This document shows, in pieces, positions 4,801 through 34,582 of a stretch of 64,000 nt of DNA (within the stretch, counting starts at the first letter, position 1; each line of letters starts with the position of its first letter). The notes beneath the pieces are model-generated. The model did no database searches. It had not been told where the DNA came from and saw only the letters and a program-made list of their open reading frames with translations. Source of the stretch: a virus; IMG/VR virus record IMGVR_UViG_3300033150_002070, positions 1 to 64,000 of that record, one strand, 5' to 3'. A program made the translations under genes and the position numbers.

Positions 4801-6923
4801 TTGTAAAGATTTATAGTGTGGAACCTAACAGTAATGATTCCGCCTATTGGAACCTTGACAGCGGTTGAGTAGGACCTTCCAGCTTTGGTGTACTGCTTGC
4901 CGTTTATCTCGACGATAGTCTTTGGATCGACGTTGTCGGCCTGCGAGAACGCAAGTGCGAAATCGTAGTTATAGACCCCCTTGGTCTTCGTCTCAGTTGC
5001 TTTCCAGACGATACAGTGGAGTTCAGCGTAGGTCTTGAGCTTCAAAATTTCAGTTGTAAGTCCATTCAGTGAGTATTTCATCGTCTGGAACTTGACCATA
5101 GCGCCTTCCGATGCTTCAGCCTTAGAGTAGCGAATCAGGGCCTCGCGGAGCTCCTTCTCTGTCTTTACATAGGTTGAAGGGGCAAGGTTGAAGCGGTATT
5201 TAAGATTGGGCTTACCAATCGTTGACTGTTCAAATTTGAAACCCCCTGTGAGCTTTTTCATCCTCTCCACATACGGCTCATTGTGAATATCTTGGCCGTC
5301 AAGGTACAGAAGATCGAAAACGTTAAGGACGATTTCGGAATCATCAGCCTTGCCCTTCGAGTGCAGATAGCCTGCCGTGTCCTCCCTTGGAGCGTGAGAA
5401 CCAGACGGCCAGTACTCTACCTCAACATCAAACACAAACTCGTCGTGCGGAAACTGAAGCGCCTCAGCAACGGTATTCGGAAGCCTGTCTGTAATATCAG
5501 CCCCATCATCGGAGTAAATGATTACCCGATCCTTCATCCTGTGAAGCTGACAGTGGATGCCGTCGTATTTTTTCTGAACAACCGACGGGACGATCTCAGT
5601 CTCAAGCTTCTTTCTCTTGGCAATCTCTTTGAGAACTTTAACCATACTGTCAACAGAGTATTCCTCGCCAGAACGGTAGCCGTGCAGAGACGAGATCGAG
5701 CTTTTAAGAGGATAGAAAAACTCTCCGAGGGTAATCTTATCGTTCCGCTTGGCCTTCTCAGCCTGCTCTTTAGCCCGCTTGCTCTTGGCCCGAACTTCAG
5801 CTTTGACCAAGTCATCCCGAGGCTCGAAGTCGCCCATCTCGTGAATCTTGTTCTCGGGATTAACCCGCTCAATAGTCATATCATAAAGCTCGATATAGTC
5901 TGTGAACGGACCCATGTTATCCCACAAGAAGTGGAACCGGTCCCAGTACTCCGGAGGGAAAGACCGCATAATCCGCCACTCGATTATATGCTTAAGCTGA
6001 TCTGGAAGATCCTCGGACTCCCTTACTACAATATCAATATCACCCTCAGTCTTCCCATTTACAACGAGCCCTCCAACAAGCATTATAAACGGCGAGCGGA
6101 CTTTGAACTCCTTGAAGTACTGCAAGACTTCATCGAGCGTAATCTCTTTGCCTCGCTTAACTCCGGAAGGGTTAATCGGCGCAAAACGGCGTGCTTTCTC
6201 AAGTGAAAGATCAAGCTCAAACTCCGGATCGGTTATAGCAGAATCGGCAAGAAGGCCCAAAAGCTCAGCATCGCTAAGATCAACAAGTTTAATCTCGTCG
6301 GCAAACTTGACTTTGCGGATGAAAGTCTGAACTCCAGCCGGCACGATAGCACGTCTTGGAGTTGAGAATTTCACAACCGGCTTAAATGAGTAGAACCAGT
6401 AGGTAGATCTCGATCCCCACCACTTATCAGCTTCAGCCTCGGAAACTCTGTGCTTTGCAGACAGCTTCTTGAAGGTGGATCTATCGCCCTCACGAATATC
6501 AGTGATCCTGATAGCTCCATAAACCTTCCTGTCGCTTACAAGCCAGAAGGTTCTATCAAGAGCAGACGGAAACTTTGCCGCCTTAACGATAAGGGTCTTC
6601 TTGCCGTCCGCAATCAGCCTTCCATGAGGCTCAACTAGGTAAAGACCAGGTTTGATCGCCTTCCTTAAAGCACGCTCAGCCTCATCACCAGCAAAAGACT
6701 TCATCTCATCAGGCTTGAATGTAGTCGAGCCTCTCAAGACAAGCTCGGCTACAATGTCGTCGAGAATGTTTCTCACCTGAGAGATCGAGTACTTCAGCTT
6801 TACCCCGCGCCTTAACGATGAAAGCCAAGCGAGTGCAATCCTGAAGTCGTCCCTAAGAACCTCATCTGAAAGGCTGGTCGGATCGTACTTGTCAAGATTT
6901 TCAATCTTAACTAAATCCATCAC
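1797..6923 (-). CDS. Multidomain nucleotidyltransferase / ATP-dependent ligase / DNA methyltransferase / PE-like protein with intein
   Basis: A 1708-aa fusion. Residues about 90-200 look like a PUA/ASCH-type beta domain. About 275-350 carry a GG-x(7)-DIDIVV nucleotidyltransferase motif. About 420-720 are an ATP-dependent polynucleotide ligase with the KYDG adenylation lysine at residue 452. About 750-1070 are a class I DNA methyltransferase (GSK, FDPMAGWGS, later DPPY near 965). About 1090-1187 resemble a LigD 3'-phosphoesterase (HADVRIEHG, like HYDFRLE). A 336-aa intein interrupts residues 1188-1523, and the extein resumes with TEWLTFEGV. Start is GTG 6923 or, more likely, ATG 6920, which overlaps the previous stop as TGATG. 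No strong internal ribosome sites were seen. It lies in the late head operon, so virion packaging or DNA end processing is possible, but that is inference. Confidence 0.8.
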   Translation of the reverse strand: MMDLVKIENLDKYDPTSLSDEVLRDDFRIALAWLSSLRRGVKLKYSISQVRNILDDIVAELVLRGSTTFKPDEMKSFAGDEAERALRKAIKPGLYLVEPHGRLIADGKKTLIVKAAKFPSALDRTFWLVSDRKVYGAIRITDIREGDRSTFKKLSAKHRVSEAEADKWWGSRSTYWFYSFKPVVKFSTPRRAIVPAGVQTFIRKVKFADEIKLVDLSDAELLGLLADSAITDPEFELDLSLEKARRFAPINPSGVKRGKEITLDEVLQYFKEFKVRSPFIMLVGGLVVNGKTEGDIDIVVRESEDLPDQLKHIIEWRIMRSFPPEYWDRFHFLWDNMGPFTDYIELYDMTIERVNPENKIHEMGDFEPRDDLVKAEVRAKSKRAKEQAEKAKRNDKITLGEFFYPLKSSISSLHGYRSGEEYSVDSMVKVLKEIAKRKKLETEIVPSVVQKKYDGIHCQLHRMKDRVIIYSDDGADITDRLPNTVAEALQFPHDEFVFDVEVEYWPSGSHAPREDTAGYLHSKGKADDSEIVLNVFDLLYLDGQDIHNEPYVERMKKLTGGFKFEQSTIGKPNLKYRFNLAPSTYVKTEKELREALIRYSKAEASEGAMVKFQTMKYSLNGLTTEILKLKTYAELHCIVWKATETKTKGVYNYDFALAFSQADNVDPKTIVEINGKQYTKAGRSYSTAVKVPIGGIITVRFHTINLYKDPETGHIRVHLYEPIFHEYRESDKYPDSISTAIRIGKESNTLSVKEASDELDDEIVKWTGSKARFVDKILKHMPEDMTGMTLFDPMAGWGSVPFAAIERGCEVILNDANPICYYWLKAVLEGEPLTDDEINAFLNAPKVEGFLTKRRDLIPRPHRREARMHLDGLVHFAMKLPRRKMWTAMGAIASTLIAWAGSYENLYEFKNKPHRASDSIEMNKSTVKRLLGRVHRYQEKYGGHGRVTCRNAFNMKIPKVDIVYYDPPYIAEKLRIKEGDTRYERYWKLASFLLQRETRLPRSDVQKFIELGKKLGKSCKLLLISDTGDDSSAFKWEEVFPNAEIDKFTVISTGYVRGQHRPKKEKVVKVGKLATSDLKKSDLLLEIPPEDQTYRYVVQHHYRGKTCHADVRIEHGPRKDILVGFTLDDLIRGAITKPVLTLADAKKFDADDSHFKIGWNSGKWKTRKRGDKYVNVEVVCQKKAPEPCLVKGSLVWTATGLVPIERIKKGDLVLDASGEWTKVLEVGRVPLKSRLFEVRASRSLKYRMTEHHPVLTESGWVKVSELSKSDKLVFPKVKPTGELDSLIYLQFAQNGKYSTAKVLPLDYLTGYVFGVILGDGHISETGITISLSPDKKRPIEMIEKFCERVERPYKLTGHGTENYFSVAIYDSKLAEFIRSIAYHGKRGSSYLKGLPPIFLQRTNTEFLKGYCDGLVDSDGYRTSRETRFTNSSIELMSSFLFARLLLGEPCAFTENRYEKFGANRVKFTTQKLDIEQEYYSADDEKILLTVWESSEIWKGNCKYVWNLQTEDGTFCLANFATHNTEWLTFEGVTKPGTVGATKQYPGVFHIIERGTCEYGAQKPWIHEFWFHPTKGKGLAGRIIFRQIANIWREKDDVLEKLAEDPFADLDEVVTAERGIEDLPVGQEGFGEAESGWVCIKPVDPEPYVLSRRAERKKWLPPKGISALPAEMRKKIPDELRYWTMEGAKALEARAEIRRRIKRGELKLW
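2355..3362 (-). other. Intein (336 aa) with LAGLIDADG-type endonuclease
   Basis: The intein starts with Cys (CLVKGSLVW) and ends with HN followed by Thr, the standard splice junctions. Block A (CLVKGSLV), block B (MTEHHPVL), and LAGLIDADG-like helices (LTGYVFGVILGDG and FLKGYCDGLVDSDG) are visible, then the terminal FATHN. It is inserted within the PE-like C-terminal part of the fusion protein. The DG/DSDG endonuclease acidic residues are retained, so homing activity is plausible. Confidence 0.93.
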
Positions 6924-24791: not shown

Positions 24792-24913
24792 GCTACTGTG
24801 CAGTGTTTGTGATCGGGTTCGTAGCGGGGTGGGTGTGGAATGAGGTCGTGGACTGGGCGTTAAGTTCGTGGCTAAGAAAGGGGGCAGGCGATGAGGACTC
24901 GGAAGGTGTATAA
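24788..24913 (+). CDS. Tiny membrane protein, 41 aa
   Basis: ATGA overlap with the previous gene and 23-bp overlap with the next. One hydrophobic segment (CAVFVIGFVAGWVWNEVV) and an acidic tail. Function unknown. Confidence 0.5.
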   Translation: MSYCAVFVIGFVAGWVWNEVVDWALSSWLRKGAGDEDSEGV

Positions 24914-25313
24914 GCTGGTTTTCGAGGACCCGAGTGGTAAGCTTCTATCAGCGATAGTCCGGGGCCCAATCCAGATTGAGTATGGGCTAGGAGTATGGAC
25001 GATAGGTCGGTATGGTCCGATCCTTGCGTTCACTGATCTAAAGAGCGCGGCCTCGTTCTGGCGAAGCTGTATTAGAACTCAGAGGTGGAAAGTGTACGCG
25101 GCCGAGGCAAGGGGTGTTAGGCCTGTGAAAGTTCTGATGGGGTTCGGATTGCTTCCACAGCCTGGCTGTGGACCAGCCAGTGGAGCGCTTGTACGCACGT
25201 TCTGGTCGAATCGGCGTGCTTTCCGAGGTGATCGTATATGGGCTCCGTTCGGGACAGTCGCTTGCCGTGCCGTAAAGCTCCTGCACGAGGTCCCCAGACA
25301 CGAGCTCGAATAG
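24891..25313 (+). CDS. Paralogue array member 1, 140 aa
   Basis: First of eight tandem related genes. Shared pattern: an N-terminal VYKxV strand, SAxV near residue 20, Y-x-GxW, GPxLAF with L-x-A-x-x-F, a W-xx-EAxGVR segment near the middle, FW, then GTVACxxxKL at the end. Here these read VYKLV, SAIV, GPILAF, YAAEARGVR and GTVACRAVKL. No name is known to me. Likely small soluble alpha/beta proteins. Confidence 0.7.
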   Translation: MRTRKVYKLVFEDPSGKLLSAIVRGPIQIEYGLGVWTIGRYGPILAFTDLKSAASFWRSCIRTQRWKVYAAEARGVRPVKVLMGFGLLPQPGCGPASGALVRTFWSNRRAFRGDRIWAPFGTVACRAVKLLHEVPRHELE

Positions 25314-25323
25314 GAGGTTAGCT

Positions 25324-25716
25324 ATGGAGAAGGTCTATAAGGTCGTGATAAGGTCAAGTCGAGGCGTGCTCATGTCGGCGATGGTCTGGACGTCGCCGAT
25401 GGCGGTTGAGTACGAGCCAGGGGAGTGGGTAGAGGGCAAGTATGGTCCTCTTTTCGCTTTCGACAACCTCGAAGCCGCCAAAGGGTTTATGGAGCGTGGA
25501 CTCTATGCTAGAGAGGTGTGGGAAGCTCTGGCGGAGGGCATTAGGCCTATCCAGTCGGTGCTTTCGTTTAACTGGATCGACGATGTAGATGCTGTTGTGA
25601 AGTTTTGGCGTGGTGAGCTTGGGGGTGTTGAGGCGCCCTCAGGTTCTGTCGTGTGTGATAGGATTAAGCTGGTAAAGCGGGTCTGTAGTGTGGACGACTG
25701 GCTGGTAGGTGCTTAA
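25324..25716 (+). CDS. Paralogue array member 2, 130 aa
   Basis: Closest to the array consensus: VYKVV, SAMV, YEPGEWVEGKYGP, FAF, EALAEGIR, FWRG and GSVVCDRIKLVKRV. Strong ribosome site AGGAGGTTAGCT, 10 bp after member 1. Confidence 0.7.
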   Translation: MEKVYKVVIRSSRGVLMSAMVWTSPMAVEYEPGEWVEGKYGPLFAFDNLEAAKGFMERGLYAREVWEALAEGIRPIQSVLSFNWIDDVDAVVKFWRGELGGVEAPSGSVVCDRIKLVKRVCSVDDWLVGA

Positions 25717-25730
25717 GAAGGAGGCTCAAG

Positions 25731-26231
25731 ATGAAAGTTTACAAGTGGGACAGTAGTAATGCGATAGGATCAAGCTTGAGAGGAAACTTGGAGCGGTGCC
25801 AGGAGGGTACCATGAAGACAGTGTGTAAGGTGGTTACAAGGGTGGACGGTCGGCTCATGTCGGCCTTCTGTTGGGCATATAGCACCGCGATTGAGTATGA
25901 GGAGGGCAAGTGGGTGCGTGGCGTGCATGGGCCAATCTTCGCTTTCAAGGATAAAGTCTCTGCGTGGAAGTTTGCCTATCCTGGGTTTACTGGTGAGGAA
26001 GTGTGGCTCGCTGAGGCTGAAGGCGTGCGTGAGGCCAAGTGGATGCTTGAGGTGGGCCTTGTATACGATGAGAAGCTCGTTGAGGGCTTCTGGAAAAAGT
26101 TTCCGGTAGGCCGCTTTAACACGACCTATGTGGAATACGCTGTTCCTGGAACGGTGGTGTGCGATAGGTTGCGTCTTGTGAGACCCTTGTGGCGAAAGGA
26201 GGTTCAAGGATGGGTCGAGTGTACAAAGTAG
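25731..26231 (+). CDS. Paralogue array member 3, 166 aa (or 139 aa)
   Basis: Two good in-frame starts: ATG 25731 (AAGGAGGCTCAAG) and ATG 25812 (CAGGAGGGTACC). Array homology starts only at the second (VCKVV, SAFC, YEEGKWVRGVHGP, AEAEGVR, FWKK, GTVVCDRLRL). The extra N-terminus begins KVYK, perhaps the worn remnant of another copy. Confidence 0.65.
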   Translation: MKVYKWDSSNAIGSSLRGNLERCQEGTMKTVCKVVTRVDGRLMSAFCWAYSTAIEYEEGKWVRGVHGPIFAFKDKVSAWKFAYPGFTGEEVWLAEAEGVREAKWMLEVGLVYDEKLVEGFWKKFPVGRFNTTYVEYAVPGTVVCDRLRLVRPLWRKEVQGWVECTK

Positions 26232-26581
26232 TCTATTCGCCGAGGCCCGATACCTTCGTGAGCGCTGTAATGGCCTTTTCTCCGCTTGAGGTTAAGTACC
26301 GCGAAGGTGAGTGGGTAAGTGGAATAGACGGAACGCCGGTGCTGGCCTTCGACTGTCTGAGGAACGCCAAGCAGTGGATGGAGGGTTTCGGTATACGACA
26401 TGCCTTTTCAGTATGGGAGTGTGAGGCGGAGGGTGTAAGGCGGGTGAGTGAGCTGGCGGCACCGCATAGGCTTGCTGGTGAGCTTATTGCATACTGGAAA
26501 GGGTTCAGGAGAGCTGTGATACGACCACCTGTTGGAACGGTTGCGTGTGATAGGATCAAGCTTCTGAGGAGGGTTGTATGA
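26210..26581 (+). CDS. Paralogue array member 4, 123 aa
   Basis: Starts at ATG 26210 after AAAGGAGGTTCAAGG, overlapping member 3 by 22 bp. Motifs: VYKVV, SAVM, YREGEWVSGIDGTPVLAF, CEAEGVR, YWKG, GTVACDRIKLLRRV. Confidence 0.7.
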   Translation: MGRVYKVVYSPRPDTFVSAVMAFSPLEVKYREGEWVSGIDGTPVLAFDCLRNAKQWMEGFGIRHAFSVWECEAEGVRRVSELAAPHRLAGELIAYWKGFRRAVIRPPVGTVACDRIKLLRRVV

Positions 26582-26986
26582 GAGTGTTCAAGGTGTTTTC
26601 GGCCTGCAAAGGGCGTCTTGAGTCGGCAGTGGTGACAGGTGATCTTAGGGTGAAGTATGAGCCTGGTAAGTGGGCGGGTGGAGTGGCAGGGGACTCCTGT
26701 TCTTGCATTCAAGACGCTTCGGGACGCTGAGCGTTTTGTGAGAACTGGTCTTATCGGCCTTGATGAGTTTGAGATATGGGGATGTGAGGCTGAGGATATG
26801 CGTGAGATGAAGATGCTTGTTTTCCATCCGATCTCCGAGGATGATGTACGGACATTCCGGGATGAGTTTGAGAATGGAGTTGAGAAGCCAAGTGTTTTCC
26901 TTGGCACTGCTCCAAGAGGGACCGTTGCGTGTAGCAGGGTGAAGCCGGTCCGAGTGGTTGAGAAGTACGAGGCGGGTGATTTCTGA
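26578..26986 (+). pseudogene. Paralogue array member 5, frameshifted
   Basis: The gene starts at ATG 26578 (ATGA overlap) and reads VFKVFSACKGRLESAVV...YEPGKWAGGVAG, then loses frame. Homology resumes in another frame as GTPVLAFKTLRDAERF and continues to GTVACSRVKPVRVV. One surplus G in the GGGG run at 26689-26692 explains it: with GGG the protein reads KWAGGVAGTPVLAF, exactly as its siblings. Sequencing error, true inactivation and slippage cannot be told apart here. Confidence 0.75.
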
Positions 26987-27001
26987 GGGGGGGTGATCTG
27001 G

Positions 27002-27397
27002 TTGGTTTACAAGGTCTTCGCACGTGGTTCGTACGGGCTTGAATCGGCTGTAGTCTTGGGCGAGCTTAGGATAGTTTACAGGCCCAAGAAGTGGAGTAGT
27101 GGGTACTGTGAAACGCCGGTGCTTGCGTTCAAGACGCTTGAGGAGGCGAGGTTTTTCGCAAGGGCTAACCTCACTGGGATGTTCAGGTATGAGATTTGGG
27201 AGTGTGAGGCTGAAGAAGTTCGTGAGGTGAGTGTGCTCGCGTACTATCCGGTTTTCCTCCACGAGATCATATCGTTCTGGCATGGTAAGTTCGAGCCTCC
27301 CTACACCATGCCGGCTCCGGATGGGACAGTAGCGTGCACGAGGATCAAACCAATCCGAAAGATCGAGGAGGTTAACGTTGAGAAACCAAGTCTTTAA
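27002..27397 (+). CDS. Paralogue array member 6, 131 aa
   Basis: Homology and spacing after GAGGGGGGG favour TTG 27002 (LVYKVF) over GTG 26993. Motifs: SAVV, YRPKKWSSGYCETPVLAF, CEAEEVR, FWHG, GTVACTRIKPIRKI. Confidence 0.68.
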   Translation: MVYKVFARGSYGLESAVVLGELRIVYRPKKWSSGYCETPVLAFKTLEEARFFARANLTGMFRYEIWECEAEEVREVSVLAYYPVFLHEIISFWHGKFEPPYTMPAPDGTVACTRIKPIRKIEEVNVEKPSL

Positions 27398-27797
27398 GGT
27401 CTTCAAGTCTATTGATGGCAGGCTTGTTTCTGCAGTAGTAAGCGGTGGGCTTGCCGTTGATTACGAGCCTGGTAAGTGGTCAGCTGGGCCGTGCGGAACG
27501 CCTGTTTTAGCGTTCACTTCTCTTGAAGCGGCTCAGGAGTTTGTGAGGGATGTTGTTGAGACTGGGTTTACGTACGAGATATGGCTATGTGAGGCCCAGG
27601 GAGTTCGGAGAATTCGCAAAGTAGTCCTGTATCCTATGGCGTCGCCTTCGGAGGTTTTGTCGTACTGGATGGGTGTAAGGCGCGGCATTCCCACCATCAA
27701 AGCTCCAAGATGTACGGTAGCATGCAGTGCGGTTAAGCCTGAAAAGTTTATTGAGCTTCGTCACATGAGAGGAAGGAGGGACGTATGGGCTCGATAG
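27378..27797 (+). CDS. Paralogue array member 7, 139 aa
   Basis: TTG start with GAGGAGGTTAACG, inside the end of member 6. Motifs: VFKVFKSIDG, SAVV, YEPGKWSAGPCGTPVLAF, CEAQGVR, YWMG, CTVACSAVKP. Closest to members 5 and 6. Confidence 0.68.
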   Translation: MRNQVFKVFKSIDGRLVSAVVSGGLAVDYEPGKWSAGPCGTPVLAFTSLEAAQEFVRDVVETGFTYEIWLCEAQGVRRIRKVVLYPMASPSEVLSYWMGVRRGIPTIKAPRCTVACSAVKPEKFIELRHMRGRRDVWAR

Positions 27798-28189
27798 TTT
27801 ACAAAGTAGTTAGGCGGTGTGGAGACAATCTCCTTCACTCGTGTTCTGTTGATGGTACTCCGATTGAAGTTGTGTATCATCCTGGAAGGCGGGTGTGGAG
27901 TCCTCACGGGCCAGTGCTTGCCTTTGACACGGTTGAGCATGCGCGTGAGTTCATGTTAGAGGAACGTGAGGAGCTTTGGGAGGCTGAGGCCGAAGTTGAA
28001 GGGTCTGTTGAGACGCTTATCTTCACAGATGGGATAGGTGCATCTTCGCTCCCGAGAATAGTATCTCAGTTTTGGAAGAGTGGGGCTTACCAAAACCCCA
28101 ATCTTCACAGGACCTCTGCTATGTATTTTCTTCCACCACCTGGAACACTTGCGTGCAGGTGGATTGAGCTTAAAAGGAGGGTAGTATGA
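27785..28189 (+). CDS. Paralogue array member 8, 134 aa
   Basis: ATG after GGAAGGAGGGACGT. Most divergent copy: VYKVVRRCGD, YHPGRRVWSPHGPVLAF, EAEAEVEG, FWKS, GTLACRWIELKRRV. Confidence 0.68.
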   Translation: MGSIVYKVVRRCGDNLLHSCSVDGTPIEVVYHPGRRVWSPHGPVLAFDTVEHAREFMLEEREELWEAEAEVEGSVETLIFTDGIGASSLPRIVSQFWKSGAYQNPNLHRTSAMYFLPPPGTLACRWIELKRRVV

Positions 28190-32615: not shown

Positions 32616-34163
32616 ATGCCTTCCAGGAATATCTTTAACACTAAGACTTCTCATCTTCCCAAGGTTAATACGGTGAACGAGGCTGGTGGAACAGCCTATA
32701 AGTTTTCGCCGAAGCATACGCTGGCCCAGCTTGCCGTCACAGGCACATTCGAAAAGACGTATTATACGGACGGCGAAGCTCAGCTTGATAAGCTCAAGGA
32801 GATACTTCCTGAGATCGAGCCTGAGTTTATAGCCAAGTGCGCAGTCTATTCTAGAAGGCGTGGGTTTATGAAGGATATGCCGGCCTTCCTTCTTGCGTAT
32901 CTTTCGACAAGACACCTGGGACTGTTTGAGCGGATCTTTCCCAAGGTCGTGAATAACGCTCGTATGCTTCGAGGCTTCGTCCAGATAGTAAGAAGCGGGG
33001 CCGTCGGAAGACGATCTTTCGGATCGTGCCCCAAAAGGCTCATCCGGAAGTGGGTCGTCCAGCGAGACTTGTCCCAGCTTTTCAGGGATTCTATCGGCGA
33101 GCCTTCGATGGGCGACATTATCAAGATGGTACACCCAAAGCCCAAGAGCAAGGCACAGGAAGCCTTATTCGGGTATCTTATCGGAAGTGAGGTTAACGCC
33201 GAGTATCTTCCTGATCTTGTAAAGGAGTTCGAGGCTTTCAAGGCGTCTCCCGACTCCACGAAGGTTCCCGATGTTCCGTTCATGCTTCTTACAGGCGTAA
33301 ACTTCGGAGAGCAAAAGAGGGCTATCTGGAAGCGTATCCTTGAGAACGCCTCGTGGCAACAGACAAGGATAAATCTCAACACTTTCAAGCGTCACGGCGT
33401 TTTCGACGATCCTGAGACGGTTGAGCTTGCGGCAAAGCGTCTTTCGGATCGGGATCTTATTCTGAGGGCCAAGGCGTTCCCGTTCCAGGTATATGCAACG
33501 CTCAAGTTCGCAAGATATGACCATAGGATCGAGAAGGCCTTACTCGACGCTCTTGAGGTAACAGTTGAAAATATCCCTGAGTTTGAGGGTAACGTCCTTG
33601 TCTTTCCAGATGTTTCAGCCTCAATGGGTTCACCTATAACGGGTGAGCGCGGCTCTGCTTCGAGCAGAGTCCAGTGTGTAGATGCAGCCGGGCTTTTTGC
33701 GGCGTGCATACTCAAGAAGAATAAAAACGCTGTGGTCTGGCCATTTGACACACGGGTCTATCACTGGGTTCGTCTGAGCCCGTTCGACACAGTCTATACT
33801 AACGCCGAAAAGATCGCCGGGCTTTGTGGTGGTTCGACTGCAATCCACGCTCCTCTTGAAATGGCCAACGACGAGGGGCTTAAGGGCGATCTTGTGATCT
33901 ACATATCGGATAACGAGTCCTGGGTTGGGTCTGAACCGTTTGAAACGCGGACGATCAAGGCCTGGGATAAGTTCAAGCGGCGCAATCCCAACGCGAAGCT
34001 CGTCTGCATAGACATTCAGCCTACAGGTTCAACTCAGGCACCCGACGATCCGTCAATCCTTAACATAGGCGGGTTTTCTGATTCGATCTTTGAAGTAATC
34101 CGTCTTTTCGCAACTGGATCGCCGGATCACTGGGTAGAGGTCATTGAGAATGAGAGGATCTAA
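32616..34163 (+). CDS. rsr: Ro60 homologue (TROVE + von Willebrand A), 515 aa
   Basis: A bacterial/phage Ro60 (Rsr) protein. Residues about 10-320 form the TROVE HEAT-repeat ring (TYYTDGEAQLDKL; AKCAVYSRRRGFMKDMPAFLLAYL; GEPSMGDIIKMVHPKPKSKA), and about 325-515 a vWA domain with MIDAS D332-x-S-x-S (DVSASMGS) and CGGSTAIHAPL. Length and order match the family (about 530 aa). Known Ro60 proteins bind Y RNAs and structured RNA ends and, with PNPase, form an RNA-degrading complex in some bacteria. The Y-RNA-like genes start 6 bp after the stop codon. It has its own promoter, so it is set apart from the operon before it. Confidence 0.93.
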   Translation: MPSRNIFNTKTSHLPKVNTVNEAGGTAYKFSPKHTLAQLAVTGTFEKTYYTDGEAQLDKLKEILPEIEPEFIAKCAVYSRRRGFMKDMPAFLLAYLSTRHLGLFERIFPKVVNNARMLRGFVQIVRSGAVGRRSFGSCPKRLIRKWVVQRDLSQLFRDSIGEPSMGDIIKMVHPKPKSKAQEALFGYLIGSEVNAEYLPDLVKEFEAFKASPDSTKVPDVPFMLLTGVNFGEQKRAIWKRILENASWQQTRINLNTFKRHGVFDDPETVELAAKRLSDRDLILRAKAFPFQVYATLKFARYDHRIEKALLDALEVTVENIPEFEGNVLVFPDVSASMGSPITGERGSASSRVQCVDAAGLFAACILKKNKNAVVWPFDTRVYHWVRLSPFDTVYTNAEKIAGLCGGSTAIHAPLEMANDEGLKGDLVIYISDNESWVGSEPFETRTIKAWDKFKRRNPNAKLVCIDIQPTGSTQAPDDPSILNIGGFSDSIFEVIRLFATGSPDHWVEVIENERI

Positions 34164-34168
34164 GTTTA

Positions 34169-34305
34169 GCCCTGGATGCCGAGGGGGATTACATCCGCAT
34201 GGGACGGCGTGGTTACAGGTTCGAGTCCTGTCGTCCAGCCCTAGTGGCTGGATGTAGCTCAATCGGCAGAGCACGATAGTAAATCTCTCTCACTATTGCC
34301 AGGGC
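34169..34305 (+). ncRNA. Y RNA 1 with circularly permuted tRNA-like domain (Yrl type)
   Basis: The closing stem is GCCCTGG (34169-34175)/CCAGGGC (34299-34305). Then ATGCC faces ACTATTG as an internal loop, and a 9-bp helix forms from GAGGGGGAT and ATCTCTCTC, followed by the TAC bulge and ATCC. These match RNAs 2 and 3. In between lies a tRNA module in permuted order: T-arm ACAGG-TTCGAGT-CCTGT (34215-34231), acceptor 3' strand CGTCCAGCC, loop CTAGT, acceptor 5' strand GGCTGGATG, TA, then D-arm GCTC-AATCGGCA-GAGC (34257-34272). This is the architecture reported for YrlA-type bacterial Y RNAs. Confidence 0.85.
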
Positions 34306-34317
34306 AAAGGAAGTCAA

Positions 34318-34380
34318 GGCCCAGATGCCGGTTGGGGTTACATCCTGGTTGCGGATTACCTCACCACTTCTTGCTGAGCC
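34318..34380 (+). ncRNA. Y RNA 2, short form
   Basis: GGCCCAG (34318-34324)/CTGAGCC (34374-34380) closing stem with one mismatch, then ATGCC, a GGTTGGGGT strand, TAC bulge and ATCC that pairs with GGAT (34353-34356) over a 7-nt loop. Same order and bulge as RNAs 1 and 3. Confidence 0.75.
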
Positions 34381-34395
34381 TTGTAAGATTCAGCA

Positions 34396-34471
34396 GGCCC
34401 AGATGCTGGTTGGGACTACATCACAGTGACTAGCAGTTACTGACGGATGTCTCAACCGATTTTGCTGGGCC
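34396..34471 (+). ncRNA. Y RNA 3
   Basis: Perfect closing stem GGCCCAG (34396-34402)/CTGGGCC (34465-34471); ATGCT/GATTTTG internal loop; 9-bp helix GGTTGGGAC/GTCTCAACC; TAC bulge; ATC/GAT; apical hairpin CAGTGAC-TAGCA-GTTACTG. The bulged helix is the probable Ro60-binding site. Confidence 0.82.
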
Positions 34472-34481
34472 TTATAAGTTT

Positions 34482-34561
34482 GGCTCCGGCGGAGGGGTTC
34501 CTTCCTCCTTCCGGTCATATAAGGAGCTGAAAAGCAGGCCAAGCACCTCTTCGCCGGAGCC
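34482..34561 (+). ncRNA. Fourth structured RNA downstream of the Y RNAs
   Basis: Perfect 10-bp closing stem GGCTCCGGCG (34482-34491)/CGCCGGAGCC (34552-34561), extended by GAGG/CCTC across a TT bulge. It lacks the TTACATC module, so it is not an obvious Y RNA. It is followed by TTATT and may also end transcription. Confidence 0.6.
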
Positions 34562-34582
34562 TTATTAGAACGGAGGTCTGCG

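Follow-up and report, generated by a model that had tools for sequence, protein, structure and literature searches.

The question raised by this phage locus is how much of a tRNA is contained in the small RNA that adjoins its Ro60 gene. The stretch analyzed, referred to here as the window, comprises the first 64,000 bases of a virus record of 71,720 bases. Its + strand encodes, at 32616-34163, a Ro60/Rsr protein of 515 aa with TROVE and vWA domains (vWA_Ro60, PF25045, E 1e-16; TROVE, PF05731, E 4.5e-5), which matches the phrog_850 RNA-binding protein (E 4e-32) and shares roughly 35-52% identity with the Ro60 relatives fetched from phages and bacteria. Ro60 genes are common among phages (319 of 50,697 records). 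Five bases after the end of the gene at 34163, an RNA element designated Y RNA 1 begins (34169-34305, + strand). The first-pass annotation had placed this element correctly and had described it as holding a circularly permuted tRNA-like domain, with the usual tRNA ends joined, in close imitation of YrlA-type Y RNAs.

In relatives, Ro60 is held by the stem of the Y RNA, which in Deinococcus also links the protein to PNPase (PMC7790460, PMC8394870). YrlA has been likened to the D, T, and acceptor arms of tRNA and is modified by DusA and TruB; its tether, gate, and modification-enzyme roles have been summarized in the same review (PMC8394870). Additionally, a 2024 structure comparison reported that 6CU1, a bacterial Y RNA, can be superposed on tRNAs through a circular permutation (PMC11472068). 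The permuted YrlA architecture is already known and its order has been published; the main claim of the annotation is therefore correct and rediscovers a family already described. What appears to be unreported, as far as the literature searched shows, is a split anticodon arm retained across the YrlA-type family; no report of such an arm or loop in YrlA was found in that literature, which excluded key primary papers.

The ends of Y RNA 1 pair into a stem that carries the AUGC and UACA motifs of YrlA. The closing helix consists of seven Watson-Crick pairs between GCCCTGG (34169-34175) and CCAGGGC (34299-34305). It is followed by ATGCC (34176-34180), which contains the AUGC motif, a putative Ro60-binding site common to the YrlA and YrlB consensus, and by a helix of nine pairs, two of them G-U, between 34181-34189 and 34283-34291. 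Alignment to the Rfam YrlA model RF02553 assigns 34276-34305 to the 3' strand of the predicted Ro60-binding stem together with the closing helix. The TACAT motif (34190-34194) is mostly unpaired in the family consensus. The minimum free energy corresponds to a z-score of -3.33.

The arms of a tRNA follow in the order proposed by the annotation, as both RF02553 and a permuted-tRNA model indicate. The T-arm, ACAGG-TTCGAGT-CCTGT (34215-34231), leads directly into an acceptor stem (34232-34254) whose 3' strand, CGTCCAG (34232-34238), precedes its 5' strand, CTGGATG (34248-34254). Its seven canonical pairs are extended by two more, CC (34239-34240) with GG (34246-34247), around the loop CTAGT (34241-34245). 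Next come TA (34255-34256), corresponding to U8 and A9, the D-arm GCTC-AATCGGCA-GAGC (34257-34272), A26, and C27 G28, the segment from U8 to G28 spanning 34255-34275 in the permuted-model alignment. The T-loop TTCGAGT and the D-loop AATCGGCA had been called nearly canonical, and the tertiary core bears this out in full: U8, A14, A15, G18, G19, A21, U48, G53, U54, U55, C56, G57, A58, U60, and C61 are all present. The sequence has a U at position 55, and a further U lies in the D-loop; the T- and D-loops are where TruB and DusA modify YrlA.

The permuted-tRNA covariance model was built from 22 genuine tRNAs of Ro60 loci, each cut in the 5' strand of the anticodon stem, with the former tRNA ends joined by four random bases. 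Applied to both strands of the 64-kb window, it gave a single significant match, at 34195-34275 (54.7 bits, E 1.4e-14), in which 21 of 21 pairs are standard; the next-best match reached 10.2 bits (E 0.56). When Y RNA 1 was put back into normal order with the Ro60 helix omitted, the re-ordering that the annotation had proposed for comparison with shuffled controls, ARAGORN called tRNA-Pro(tgg), with a UGG anticodon, and made no call among 2000 shuffles of the re-ordered sequence. In its native order, in which a genuine tRNA would be recognized, the element elicits no tRNA call from ARAGORN.

RF02553 aligns to Y RNA 1 from end to end (model positions 1-114 of 114 at 34169-34308; 43.7 bits, E 1.7e-8). 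This score lies below the gathering cut-off of 69 bits, and a scan at the gathering threshold returned nothing; the cut-off is an inclusion threshold of Rfam and not a biological feature. Clear YrlA relatives beside Ro60 score between 46.7 and 65 bits. However, several matches that resemble tandem genuine tRNAs, in ordinary genomes, reach about 43 bits, and RF02553 also finds matches in control genomes such as that of E. coli. The score alone was therefore rejected as proof of YrlA identity, low-scoring matches require a check for Ro60, and the assignment made here is based on anatomy. With its Ro60 neighbor, AUGC and UACAU motifs, closing helices, and lack of a tRNA call, Y RNA 1 is a YrlA-type phage Y RNA, and its resemblance to YrlA, described in the annotation as a close copy of YrlA-type tRNA mimicry, is one of homology. 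Like elements adjoin Ro60 in both phages and bacteria. Y RNA 1 shares with YrlA (RF02553; Salmonella YrlA structure PDB 6CU1) the Ro60 neighbor, the closing stem with AUGC/UACA, the permuted arms, and the joined ends. It differs in its score below the cut-off, in an acceptor helix of nine pairs in place of the six of the consensus, and in an insertion of 15 nt that is left as an unaligned insert by Rfam and corresponds to the split anticodon arm.

Two further Y RNAs follow on the + strand, Y RNA 2 at 34316-34382 (RF02565, 16.2 bits, which alone is not significant) and Y RNA 3 at 34392-34473 (RF02565, 21.1 bits, E 0.11; fold z -5.2). Both share the AUGC..UACAU motif of Y RNA 1 and weakly resemble YrlB (RF02565), which has the same Ro60-site motifs as Y RNA 1 but, unlike it, has no tRNA-like arms; Y RNAs 2 and 3 are likewise without such arms. 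A pattern scan for promoters and terminators at the Y RNA locus found nothing. A long GC-rich hairpin (GGCTCCGGCGGAGGGG ... CCTCTTCGCCGGAGCC; 34475-34568, fold z -4.2) lies directly 5' of the next gene; it contains neither Y RNA motifs nor a terminator pattern and may represent another small RNA, the fourth at this locus, or else an element that acts in processing or attenuation. The genes located 3' of the Y RNAs are concerned with recombination and replication and include a PD-(D/E)XK nuclease, a Sak4-like ATPase, an ssDNA-binding protein, an SNF2-type helicase, and a sliding-clamp-like protein. Elsewhere in the window, at 24891-28189, about eight tandem + strand ORFs of ~110-165 aa are apparently paralogous, sharing 'LAF', 'EAEGVR', and 'GT(V/L)AC'.

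One part of the annotation was not supported, namely that the Ro60-binding stem replaces the anticodon arm. The segment CCG-CATGGGA-CGG (34195-34207), which it had overlooked, supplies positions 29-31, a loop of seven bases (32-38), and positions 39-41. The adjoining CG (34208-34209; 42-43) pairs with the CG at 34274-34275 (27-28), which completes an anticodon arm at tRNA spacing. C29 C30 G31 (34195-34197) thereby face C39 G40 G41 (34205-34207), C27 G28 face C42 G43, the Ro60 helix enters at 28|29, and the variable loop TGGTT (44-48; 34210-34214) follows in the permuted-model alignment. This geometry is reached with p 0.010 by shuffling. However, the loop has A33 in place of U33, and a fold based on energy only pairs the anticodon and T regions otherwise (-60.4 versus -51.0 kcal/mol). 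Because these two features oppose it, the hairpin in the window rests on comparison, that is, on the shuffling result and the family statistics. On this sequence-based evidence, it is likely to be homologous to an anticodon hairpin, and its status as a working loop is uncertain.

To obtain those statistics, elements consisting of a T-arm, acceptor strand, linker, acceptor strand, and D-arm, in this order, were sought in the Ro60 loci of viral contigs and bacterial genomes; a contig scan with the single phage Ro60 protein as query yielded no relatives, whereas an alignment as query recovered them. A criterion of geometry only was applied, by which every one of positions 39-43 must find its partner among the 5' bases of the inner hairpin and those that come right after the D-arm. 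A complete anticodon stem of 5 bp with a 7-nt loop was present in 53 of 103 permuted elements, including that of the window (16 of 28 viral and 37 of 75 cellular elements), and the other half are without a complete hairpin. In the first set, the stem was complete in 42 of 77 elements, against 2.06 (maximum 6) when the region was shuffled and 7.97 (maximum 17) when partners were swapped among elements. A second set of 26 elements, absent from the first and drawn from loci that a later search with the Rfam model had added, gave 11 against 0.59 (maximum 4) in shuffles. These counts treat related sequences as independent, and since related elements are not independent, the nominal P values are too small.

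The loops selected by geometry in the first set, without any sequence criterion, have the framework of anticodon loops, with U33 at a frequency of 0.90, Y32 at 0.93, R37 at 0.88, and A38 at 0.79, while positions 34-36 are variable. Examples lying 5' of the variable loop at tRNA spacing are CTGATAA, CTGTCAC, CTGTTAA, CTACGAA, and CTCCTAA, and this diversity argues for many independent cases. Relatives with a canonical loop include the elements at L096 3873-3953 and L084 2069-2146. Across the family, the Ro60 helix enters the 5' strand of the anticodon stem at 28|29 or 29|30. Because the full stem and loop remain, the helix is an insertion into the anticodon arm and not its replacement. ARAGORN calls on re-ordered sequences were also considered as evidence for the hairpin and were dropped, since on average 39 of the 53 elements were still called with the hairpin shuffled.

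Among 101 Y RNAs without T or D arms, nine anticodon loops were found versus 1.2 expected, an excess that is only suggestive because some of these RNAs still contain T-arms; Y RNAs 2 and 3 of the window have no anticodon-like loop under the criterion used. Several individual loci merit description. In L003, a Y RNA (4982-5062) that has neither a T-arm nor a D-arm carries an intact 17-nt anticodon arm, CCTGA-CTCATAA-TCAGG, with a CAU anticodon; two adjoining YrlA-type RNAs of that locus have regions with TTCCCAA and TTGGAAA loops. In three Neisseria loci (L088, L089, and L106, near 1733-1880), Y RNAs that appear to be orthologs have a constant stem, TAAC/GTTA, around a 7-nt loop that reads CTTCCAC or CTGTAAA. 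A record of 1748 bases labeled 'Escherichia phage ECO95 1-6-1' (OR845705.1; L005) contains a Ro60 end, YrlB (105.5 bits), and YrlA (70.9 bits) with a degenerate anticodon region, and looks more like a bacterial rsr-yrlB-yrlA contig than a phage. On a 195-kb viral contig (L002, 4928-5324), a tmRNA-like gene (RF00023, 69.1 bits) and a tRNA array adjoin Ro60 and Y RNAs.

A trace of origin is found at the joined ends. Among linkers of at least 5 bases, NCCA occupies positions 73-76 in 17 of 78, versus 1.7 expected, and the neighboring offsets give 1 and 2; the linker of Y RNA 1 in the window has no CCA. The NCCA remnants fit an origin from tandem tRNAs, of which the first copy left its 3' half and the second its 5' half. 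Probably, such a pair contributed a 3' half, then the spacer between the copies, then a 5' half; the old tRNA ends would now lie inside, and the new ends would interrupt the anticodon stem on its 5' side, at the site that received the Ro60-binding helix. By analogy with its relatives, we infer that the lower stem binds the phage Ro60 and serves it as a tether and gate. The tRNA-like head may dock the complex on a partner that recognizes tRNA, such as host PNPase, tRNA-modifying enzymes, or anticodon-loop enzymes, and phage Ro60 would thereby be directed, in the course of infection, to RNA that is structured or damaged. Taken jointly, a tRNA-derived, YrlA-type phage Y RNA that stands beside its own Ro60 gene and docks the Ro60 complex through a tRNA-like head is the reading that we regard as probable.

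How the anticodon hairpin should be understood is a separate matter. It may be a fossil of tRNA descent without a present role, in which case the only parts of importance would be the body formed by the T, D, and acceptor arms and the Ro60 stem, an account that we hold to be possible and that is the main alternative to a role as bait or sensor for anticodon nucleases. The CCA remnants are fossil-like as well, half of the elements are without a complete hairpin, the window has A33, and the anticodons of several relatives begin with A34 (ATC, AAC, ACC, AAA). Anticodons starting with A34 are unusual in bacteria. Nevertheless, close relatives retain U33, R37, and A38 even though they differ at 34-36, and such persistence beside changing anticodon bases would be unexpected under neutral drift, unless loops are often re-acquired.

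Alternatively, the tRNA-like head could offer a cleavage site to anticodon nucleases or compete with tRNAs for them, and in bacteria the fragments or the bound nuclease would feed RtcR/RtcB repair. We judge this to be rather unlikely; the broader proposal that YrlA-type RNAs are whole permuted tRNAs with varied anticodon loops, which phages and bacteria deploy together with Ro60, and with any RtcB they have, to bait or sense enzymes that cut anticodon loops, we rate as unlikely. The pattern of variation is consistent with such a role: where the bodies of two elements are at least 78% identical (214 pairs), the bases at 34-36 disagree in 61-73% of pairs, in contrast to 12% for position 33 and 29% for position 37, and in each of the seven loci that have two hairpin-bearing elements, the two loops are different. 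RtcB was found in six of the eight bacterial loci with a scanned downstream ORF (L066, L078, L080, L081, L087, and L096) but not in the ORFs of L094 and L098, and RtcR lay upstream in both places where an upstream gene was scanned, although this neighbor scan covers ten ORFs of a chosen set. Variovorax and Chthoniobacter are examples of bacteria with an RtcR-Ro60-YrlA-RtcB arrangement. YrlA has been proposed as a competitive inhibitor of anticodon nuclease, which favors this role, and in Salmonella this operon responds to damaged tRNAs; yet no YrlA fragments were seen in Salmonella (PMC7790460). RtcB was not found in the phage record, and the loop in the window has A33. The link to anticodon nucleases is a lead and not a result.

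Permuted tRNA genes exist in red algae and archaea, with the 3' half before the 5' half. Y RNA 1 shares this order, and its product could in principle be cleaved and rejoined to give a functional tRNA; ARAGORN reads the re-ordered sequence as a tRNA, some relatives keep an encoded CCA, and the ligase RtcB is a neighbor in bacteria. We nonetheless consider this very improbable. Nothing in Y RNA 1 points to excision or ligation; in the window, the ends are sealed by the two additional acceptor pairs, and the break is occupied by a conserved Ro60 helix. Moreover, the loop has A33 and relatives have unnatural A34 anticodons, and the phage record contains neither RtcB nor any other tRNA. That the remains of two genuine tandem tRNAs were misread as a Y RNA is scarcely credible: RF02553 does give about 43 bits to tandem-tRNA-like matches and has matches in control genomes, but no genuine tRNA was predicted by ARAGORN in the window or by the Rfam tRNA model (RF00005) in the 71,720-base record, and the closing helix, the AUGC/UACAU motifs that recur in Y RNAs 2 and 3, and the Ro60 gene five bases away all stand against it.

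Returning to the tRNA-derived Y RNA that we favor, sequence and statistics establish that the arms are permuted, that the core positions are canonical, that a loop closes the acceptor stem, that the ends pair in a closing helix, and that a Ro60 gene adjoins. The complete split anticodon stem with its 7-nt loop is shown for the family and, on sequence comparison, is likely for Y RNA 1 of the window. Tandem tRNAs with a fossil CCA represent a possible evolutionary route to a permuted tRNA. If the anticodon arm has been retained, with its framework bases kept and its anticodons changing, the tRNA mimic would be complete. A complete mimic would offer a concrete way to ask why such RNAs adjoin RNA-repair genes in bacteria and Ro60 in phages.
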